This document shows, piece by piece, positions 726 to 943 of a DNA stretch of 64,000 bases. The DNA is from Winogradskya humida (GTDB lineage: Bacteria > Actinomycetota > Actinomycetes > Mycobacteriales > Micromonosporaceae). The notes under the pieces were generated by a model, which saw only the letters and a program-made list of their open reading frames with translations, was not told the DNA's origin and ran no database searches. Numbering within the stretch: position 1 is the stretch's first letter; each line of letters begins with the position of its first letter. The translations under genes were made by a program, and so were the position numbers. Location of the stretch: contig NZ_BOMN01000057.1 of the NCBI RefSeq assembly GCF_016862215.1, positions 62,001 through 126,000 of the forward strand. The letters are read 5' to 3'.

Positions 726-798
726 GGACCCAACCTAATGTCTGCCGGCTCGCGTCCCGGAGTCTGGACTTCTGTCCCACAAAGCGGCAAGCAGTGGC

Positions 799-858
799 AT
801 GCTTCCGTACGTGACCCACCACTACGTGCTGATTATTCGCACCTTGCGCGCCGGCTGA
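799..858 (+). CDS. Candidate leader peptide with Val-Leu-Ile-Ile run
   Basis: This short open frame reads MLPYVTHHYVLIIRTLRAG and stops with TGA at 856-858. An in-frame GTG at 811 is an alternative start and would give 15 residues. The run Val-Leu-Ile-Ile (826-837) lies just upstream of mutually exclusive hairpins and an intrinsic terminator that precede cimA. Branched-chain residues in such a position are the hallmark of ribosome-mediated attenuation in ilv/leu operons. No strong Shine-Dalgarno is visible before either start, so translation could be leaderless. The coding claim is an inference from position and codon content. Confidence 0.6.
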   Translation: MLPYVTHHYVLIIRTLRAG

Positions 859-910
859 CGCTCCCCGCCGACGCGCAGACCTCCCGCATCCGCGGGGGGT
901 CTTTTGTTTT
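845..910 (+). promoter_or_regulatory. Attenuator: competing hairpins and intrinsic terminator before cimA
   Basis: Three pairings are visible. Bases 845-855 pair with 867-877 (10 of 11 positions). Bases 878-887 pair with 892-901 (9 Watson-Crick pairs plus one wobble) and are followed by TTTTGTTTT, which is a terminator. Bases 861-868 can instead pair with 892-899, which destroys the terminator. A ribosome stalled on the Ile codons at 832-837 would cover the start of the first hairpin and favour the antiterminator. This is the classical amino-acid attenuation layout. Confidence 0.65.
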
Positions 911-943
911 GGGTCTAAACAGTCCTCCGAAAGGAAGCTCGGC

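Follow-up and report, generated by a model that had tools for sequence, protein, structure and literature searches.

A candidate isoleucine-directed leader-peptide attenuator upstream of cimA in Winogradskya humida and other Actinomycetota

Citramalate synthase, the product of cimA, directs carbon into a route to isoleucine that does not pass through threonine. Upstream of cimA in Winogradskya humida, within the window of 64,000 nucleotides analysed here (part of a genome of 11.1 Mb), an initial annotation made from the letters alone had proposed a branched-chain amino-acid attenuation leader, and the locus raises the question of whether such an element exists, which amino acid it would sense and by what means. 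The gene itself was readily assigned, its product scoring 611.7 bits against the family model (cut-off 450). The proposed Val-Leu-Ile-Ile run was found in frame at 826–837, in a reading frame closing with the TGA at 856–858, and both the first hairpin (H1) and, by sequence, an intrinsic terminator (hairpin T) with its T-tract are present between the leader and cimA, at the positions collected in Table 1. The gap from the terminator to the cimA start is 33 nt, and the U-tract reads TTTTTGTT in most relatives of the same genus. The region 799–943 folded at −62 kcal/mol compared to −46.8 ± 3.5 kcal/mol for its shuffles, none of 200 of which was as good.

Table 1. Features of the cimA leader region in the window
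Feature	Position	Strand	Remarks
−10-like hexamer CATGCT	798..803	+	7 nt 5′ of GTG811; probable leaderless start
Leader frame GTG...TGA, 15 codons, V(M)THHYVLIIRTLRAG	811..858	+	sequence and same-genus comparison
Proposed regulatory codons ATT ATT (Ile-Ile)	832..837	+	codon use in leaders compared with cimA genes
Hairpin H1	845..877	+	arms 845–855 / 867–877; one mismatch, 851/871
H1 loop	856..866	+	length and sequence vary; contains most of the proposed antiterminator strand
Intrinsic terminator hairpin T	877..902	+	arms 877–887 / 892–902, loop ATCC; H1 adjoins
U-tract TTTTGTTTT	902..910	+	sequence
cimA, citramalate synthase, 528 aa	944..2530	+	TIGR00977

In 67 genomes of the same genus, cimA was located by protein family, independently of any RNA model; its match exceeded the family cut-off in all 67, and a leader followed by H1 and T stood upstream of the gene in every one of them. 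The leader started with GTG in 66 genomes and with ATG in one (L011), and a CANNNT hexamer lay 6–8 nt before the start in 67 of 67. Outside the genus, an xAxxxT motif was found 6–8 nt ahead of a start in 79 of 88 leaders. The frame drawn in the initial annotation stood, but the start at ATG799 that it had allowed is probably not the one used; the most likely start is the conserved GTG811. A counterpart of this in-frame ATG, 12 nt 5′ of the conserved start, exists in 53 of the 67 genomes, and in the window it overlaps the −10-like hexamer. Because the spacing from CANNNT to the start fits a leaderless transcript, transcription probably begins at GTG811, in which case the ribosome would load directly at the 5′ end.

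The peptide encoded in the genus follows VTHxVLIIRT-stop with small variations, such as VLLIST in place of VLIIRT at one locus (L068), and the differences in length between VTH and VLII amount to whole codons, indicating that the frame is conserved throughout the 67 regions. In 53 of these the stop falls just 5′ of H1, after 10–11 codons, and in the remaining 14, the window included, this stop is altered and the frame enters H1, with 11 of the 14 ending in ..RAG-stop. The TAG of most relatives is TTG in the window (844–846), so that its frame continues to the TGA. Further upstream, at 752–781 and 5′ of the −10-like hexamer, lie GTCCC...GGAC and GGAC-TTCT-GTCC blocks at which a GTCcC...gTGGA pattern is conserved in the genus, possibly a regulator site; by eye, other families (for example at L200) also have TGAGAC/GTCTCA half-sites in front of cimA and ilvB.

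To follow the element beyond the genus we used two covariance models, R1 built from the genus leaders and R2 built from 99 class-wide leaders. R1 matched in 298 of 300 genomes of the family Micromonosporaceae (E up to 0.01) and in all 40 single genomes of other genera (E up to 0.1). Of these 40, the match in G095 is unrelated and the other 39 stand upstream of CimA, which at L148 is reduced to a C-terminal portion. In the class sample, 124 of 197 genomes carried a match, some of them terminator-only. The surroundings were examined for 118 covariance-model matches (80 regions and 38 loci), a subset of all matches: 88 lie before cimA, 19 before ilvB as identified by tblastn, 2 before ilvA-like genes, and the last 9 (L149–L152, L154–L157 and L183) either consist of the terminator alone or are unrelated. 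The 88 include L148, where the downstream match covers only the C-terminal 202 CimA residues. In the W. humida genome R2 matched only once at E up to 1, in front of cimA, and in a phylum sample it matched in 68 of 296 genomes (E up to 0.001). At L331, a weak R2 match with a possible leader ending ..FVAIA-stop lies 40 nt before an isocitrate lyase gene and may be due to chance.

A further 80 named cimA loci were chosen by the CimA protein, without regard to the leader. R2 matched in 49 of these, 48 adjoining cimA and one (L294) about 2 kb off; the hosts include Streptomyces, Amycolatopsis, Kutzneria, Pseudonocardia, Nonomuraea, Cellulomonas and Kribbella and, more weakly, an Acidimicrobiaceae genome. 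Two of the 80 loci have almost no upstream sequence; of the 78 with 200 nt or more, 30 had no R2 leader adjoining cimA. At least three of the loci without a leader by the model (L260, L261 and L274) appear to have cimA directly 3′ of another gene, by eye the end of ilvE. Because ATTATT columns are part of both models, matches found with them lean towards Ile codons and towards their distance from H1. The bias does not touch the 67 genus loci or the selection of the 80 named loci, but it does affect which of the 80 are seen to have a leader.

The codons of the leader pointed to isoleucine. Every Ile codon in the same-genus leaders is ATT (133 of 133), compared to none of 548 Ile codons in the cimA genes of these genomes, counted over the gene start only for 37 of the 67. 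The ATT:ATC ratio in the other leaders was 118:44, as against 33:1293 (and 14 ATA) in their cimA genes. Outside the genus, Ile occurred in all 79 leaders with an assigned leaderless start (of 88), and Ile-Ile in 69, so that codons for the product of the pathway, one mark of a classical attenuator, are present in the leader by sequence comparison.

The position of these codons relative to H1 was more constant than that of the other parts of the frame. The distance was taken from 89 of the 99 aligned leaders, those with an assigned start and with Ile in the chosen frame. In 85 of them the last Ile codon begins 8–11 nt before H1 (s.d. 1.4), a spacing that the Ile columns of the models favour among matches. 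The stop codon, by comparison, ranges from 4 nt before to 23 nt past the first H1 base (s.d. 7.2), and the start codon lies 24–50 nt ahead of H1 (s.d. 4.2). The leading edge of a ribosome reaches some 12 nt beyond its A-site codon. We read this geometry to mean that a ribosome held up on the last Ile codon would just touch the base of H1 and, moving on, would enter it; in our reading the fixed distance is the main clue to the mechanism, H1 reporting the passage of the Ile codons.

Covariation of the three pairings had been named as a check on the proposal, and H1 and the terminator passed it. The alignment used for this purpose (A4; 99 of the 100 loci, E up to 1e-6, L148 left out) replaced an earlier one of 126 matches (A2), which was discarded for its spurious opposite-strand or partial matches. 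Of the pairs in the model, 8 of 9 in H1 and 7 of 10 in the terminator changed on both sides; 93–100% of the cells were paired in H1 and 99.7% in the terminator, and the whole-structure scores were reached by none of 500 shuffles. Since this alignment had been fitted to the model, we added a segment permutation test, in which 59 non-redundant leaders were cut into nine segments and the complementarity of native pairs was compared with that of cross-species pairs. Native complementarity clearly exceeded the cross-species level in just two of the 36 segment pairs, those of H1 (z −17) and of the terminator (z −12). The terminator stem contains a U-G wobble (882/897) that is kept in 78 of 97 sequences, with U-A in 12 and C-G in 7. 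In leaders outside the genus, constancy is confined to the pair of hairpins and the Ile codons.

The matches before other genes allowed a comparison of leader codons. With an amino-acid-blind leader rule, which picks some wrong starts (for example at L190) and misses 10 of the 88 cimA matches, Ile, Val and Leu made up 20.6, 5.2 and 9.8% of residues in cimA leaders (n = 78) and 6.3, 14.5 and 20.3% in ilvB leaders (n = 19, all of the ilvB matches). Two counts from the named loci, 41 and 39 of 49, were set aside because the script behind them had favoured Ile-containing candidates. In W. humida itself, ilvB sits on the same contig some 10 kb from cimA and is preceded by a leader MCSTFLVVLS-stop (Leu-Val-Val-Leu) and then, by eye, the two-hairpin layout. 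ilvB leaders seem by eye to prefer the rare codons GTA and CTT.

The best tblastn hit downstream of 20 matches outside the class was ilvB for 13, the CimA family for 4 and none for 3. Two of the four CimA-family genes are leuA by NCBIfam (L312 and L324), and their leaders read NLLLT-stop and GLLLR-stop; at the third locus (L328) leuB is the nearest gene and cimA follows some 2 kb downstream, and the fourth (L330) is cimA with a leader containing IIII. The two leuA genes differ in type, matching the leuA_bact and leuA_yeast models. Threonine ammonia-lyase (ilvA) provides the other route into isoleucine. Within one family, the hairpin-terminator layout precedes ilvA-like genes in two genomes (L216, 301–371; L217, 301–404), the leader of the latter ending, by eye, in Gly-Ile-Thr-stop; the NCBIfam scores of the L217 gene for threonine ammonia-lyase fall below the curated cut-offs (299.9 vs 496 and 285.8 vs 378.75). 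As far as sequence comparison can tell, the RNA design is retained from gene to gene, and the leader codons change to suit the amino acid that each gene helps to make.

The kind of element seen here is familiar from actinobacterial ilvB, and all four of its parts, a branched-chain frame, a hairpin, a terminator with a U-run and a branched-chain gene, are found at cimA. Leader peptides and terminators of actinobacterial ilvB were described in 2005 by Seliverstov et al. (PMC1262725), who called the mode of regulation unclear; shared with those leaders are a short reading frame holding stretches of Ile, Val and Leu codons and, behind it, a candidate terminator that ends in a U-run. The gene differs, ‘cimA’ being absent from the text of that paper, and so do the codons, which here are mainly Ile. 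Branched-chain ilvB leaders are reported to be backed by mutants or reporters in Corynebacterium glutamicum (PMC11857589) and Mycobacterium tuberculosis (PMC13236596). In C. glutamicum ilvBNC (MTIIRLVVVTARRLP, PMC11857589) the leader starts one nucleotide from the transcription start, much as is probable for cimA, and is followed by hairpins and a terminator; however, the three-hairpin model proposed there includes an antiterminator and an antiantiterminator with mutational support, whereas no conserved third helix was found in the cimA element. The M. tuberculosis ilvB1NC attenuator (LVVI), for which PMC13236596 gives reporter evidence, shares the short branched-chain frame and the terminator, with stalling proposed to raise readthrough, and differs in gene, codons and a predicted antiterminator drawn in that report. 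Among the leader peptides of Streptomyces lividans TK24 (PMC8079986, Table 4), which are likewise short, carry cognate codons, lie beside hairpins and in several cases are said to sit on leaderless transcripts, the eight genes listed are alaS, ilvB, thrS, trpS, leuS, leuA, trpE and metN; cimA is not in that table, yet R2 places the element before Streptomyces cimA genes among our named loci.

Two other leader types were compared with the cimA element. The LEU element of leuA (Seliverstov 2005) is a pseudoknot with a base stem to the Shine-Dalgarno box; cimA has a terminator in its place, and among the helices compared H1 and T were the only ones to covary. A T-box, with its tRNA-binding stem I and T-box sequence, was not recognized: no Rfam T-box was found in the window or in a permissive search of a locus holding the element (L019). 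The initial annotation had known of no attenuator at cimA, and in the literature naming cimA or citramalate, surveyed by titles and abstract openings, we also found none; the main texts of Streptomyces transcriptome studies lacked the words cimA and citramalate or, in one of them, citramalate and SCO5529. An RNA-seq study of Actinoplanes (Wolf et al. 2017, J Biotechnol 251:112), cited for attenuators in PMC8079986, may contain one. In our searches, the attenuator kind is known from actinobacterial ilvB, and its occurrence at cimA was not found described.

Taken together, these comparisons make the element a real, old and Ile-directed attenuator candidate. Our best reading, to which we assign a probability of roughly three in four, is that transcription of cimA is attenuated through an Ile-responsive leader peptide, in the manner of actinobacterial ilvB, according to the supply of charged isoleucyl-tRNA. 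The ribosome would translate a leader of about 7–18 codons in which Ile, mostly as Ile-Ile, comes just before H1. When isoleucine is ample, it would clear the Ile codons and most RNA polymerase would halt at the terminator, leaving little cimA expression; when isoleucine is short, it would pause on the ATT codons, just reaching the base of H1 with its leading edge, and readthrough by polymerase would increase. The claim of branched-chain leader control is well supported by these comparisons in the narrower form of mainly Ile control, carried by the frame, the Ile codons, the two covarying stems and the gene-matched codons, and the three-way switch that had been part of it is not.

The link between stalling and readthrough was sought in a third helix. 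In the classical trp/ilv type, an antiterminator excludes the terminator; no such helix was found among the conserved ones, and neither the helix scan (16 listed candidates), the permutation of 36 segment pairs nor folding with a masked ribosome footprint revealed any conserved helix beyond H1 and T. With or without the masked ribosome, the predicted terminator had a mean probability of 0.96–0.98, and the zero value at L212 arose because its terminator pairs sit in other columns. Two helices from the scan lacked a native excess and are not claimed, one between the terminator 3′ strand and the U-tract (GCGGGG/TTTTGT, 88% paired, z +0.4) and one between the leader start and the terminator 3′ strand (GACCC/GGGTC, 77%, z −0.7). 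A leader-internal hairpin, 71% paired in the scan, can be seen by eye in the majority of same-genus leaders; we leave this GTGC/GCAC hairpin around the Ile codons unclaimed because only 72–76% of its cells are paired class-wide and it sits in coding sequence. A small hairpin of the H1 3′ end with the terminator 5′ strand (GCGCAG/CTCGC), seen in some of the folds made before the terminator is complete, was rejected, being lost by eye when the strand changes. Since no conserved antiterminator was found, the step from stalling to readthrough is probably kinetic or steric, acting through H1, or relies on a pairing invisible to these tests.

The second of these options corresponds to a classical attenuator whose antiterminator is lineage-specific or co-transcriptional and is missed by alignments and equilibrium folding, as in C. 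glutamicum ilvBNC, where the antiterminator and terminator are described as sharing a short boundary trinucleotide (PMC11857589). In some species the bases just 5′ of H1 could, by eye, pair with the terminator 5′ strand. However, the end of the leader and this strand showed no native excess of complementarity (z +1.4), and shuffled sequences were at least as stable as the folds of leaders in which the terminator 3′ strand had yet to emerge (mean z about 0 to +0.7). We regard this alternative as unlikely.

Another alternative takes the codons to be inert, the structure being a plain terminator or belonging to a small RNA whose short frame is idle, and cimA being controlled at its promoter. The palindromic GGAC/GTCC block 5′ of the promoter would suit this, as would the account in PMC1262725 of earlier work on Streptomyces coelicolor ilvB, according to which changes of candidate regulatory codons had no effect on regulation, a result that counts against the attenuation reading. 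An idle frame is hard to reconcile with length changes in whole codons, the exchange of GTG and ATG, the retention of the rare ATT, codons matched to the gene and a fixed distance from Ile to H1, and we consider it improbable.

The specific switch of the initial annotation, in which 861–868 would pair with 892–899 once a stalled ribosome covers H1, fared worse. Both strands can pair in the window, and the inner five pairs of these columns form in about 71% of weighted sequences; nevertheless, 861–866 lie in the variable H1 loop, the covariation expected of the helix was missing, with no native excess between the H1 loop and the terminator 3′ strand (native −6.61, permuted −6.74, z +0.8), and the window with H1 blocked still folded into the terminator (0.97) rather than the antiterminator. 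This three-strand arrangement is very improbable. A ligand- or protein-binding RNA reading Ile-Ile by chance, which strong sequence conservation within the genus might suggest, is scarcely credible, given that no Rfam family was found at the element at gathering level in the window (only two tRNAs elsewhere) or in a permissive search of 11 loci, and that outside the genus nothing but the hairpins and the Ile codons is constant.

Returning to the Ile-responsive attenuator, we also consider, tentatively and as a possibility on which we would not yet bet, that it belongs to an antiterminator-free chassis spread across the phylum Actinomycetota, composed of a leaderless leader, a ribosome-gauging hairpin and an abutting terminator, with the codons swapped according to the gene (Val/Leu at ilvB, Leu at leuA, Ile at cimA and ilvA). 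A ribosome stalled 8–11 nt before H1 would then block termination sterically or kinetically, without an alternative fold. The covariation of two hairpins and not of a third makes testable the question of whether a stalled ribosome can block an intrinsic terminator without a competing fold.

If the reading is right, an Ile-specific attenuator at cimA together with the Val/Leu type at ilvB of the same genome would explain separate control of isoleucine and of valine and leucine by one RNA design. Antibiotic producers use branched-chain precursors, and the leader would offer a small target for tuning their isoleucine supply.
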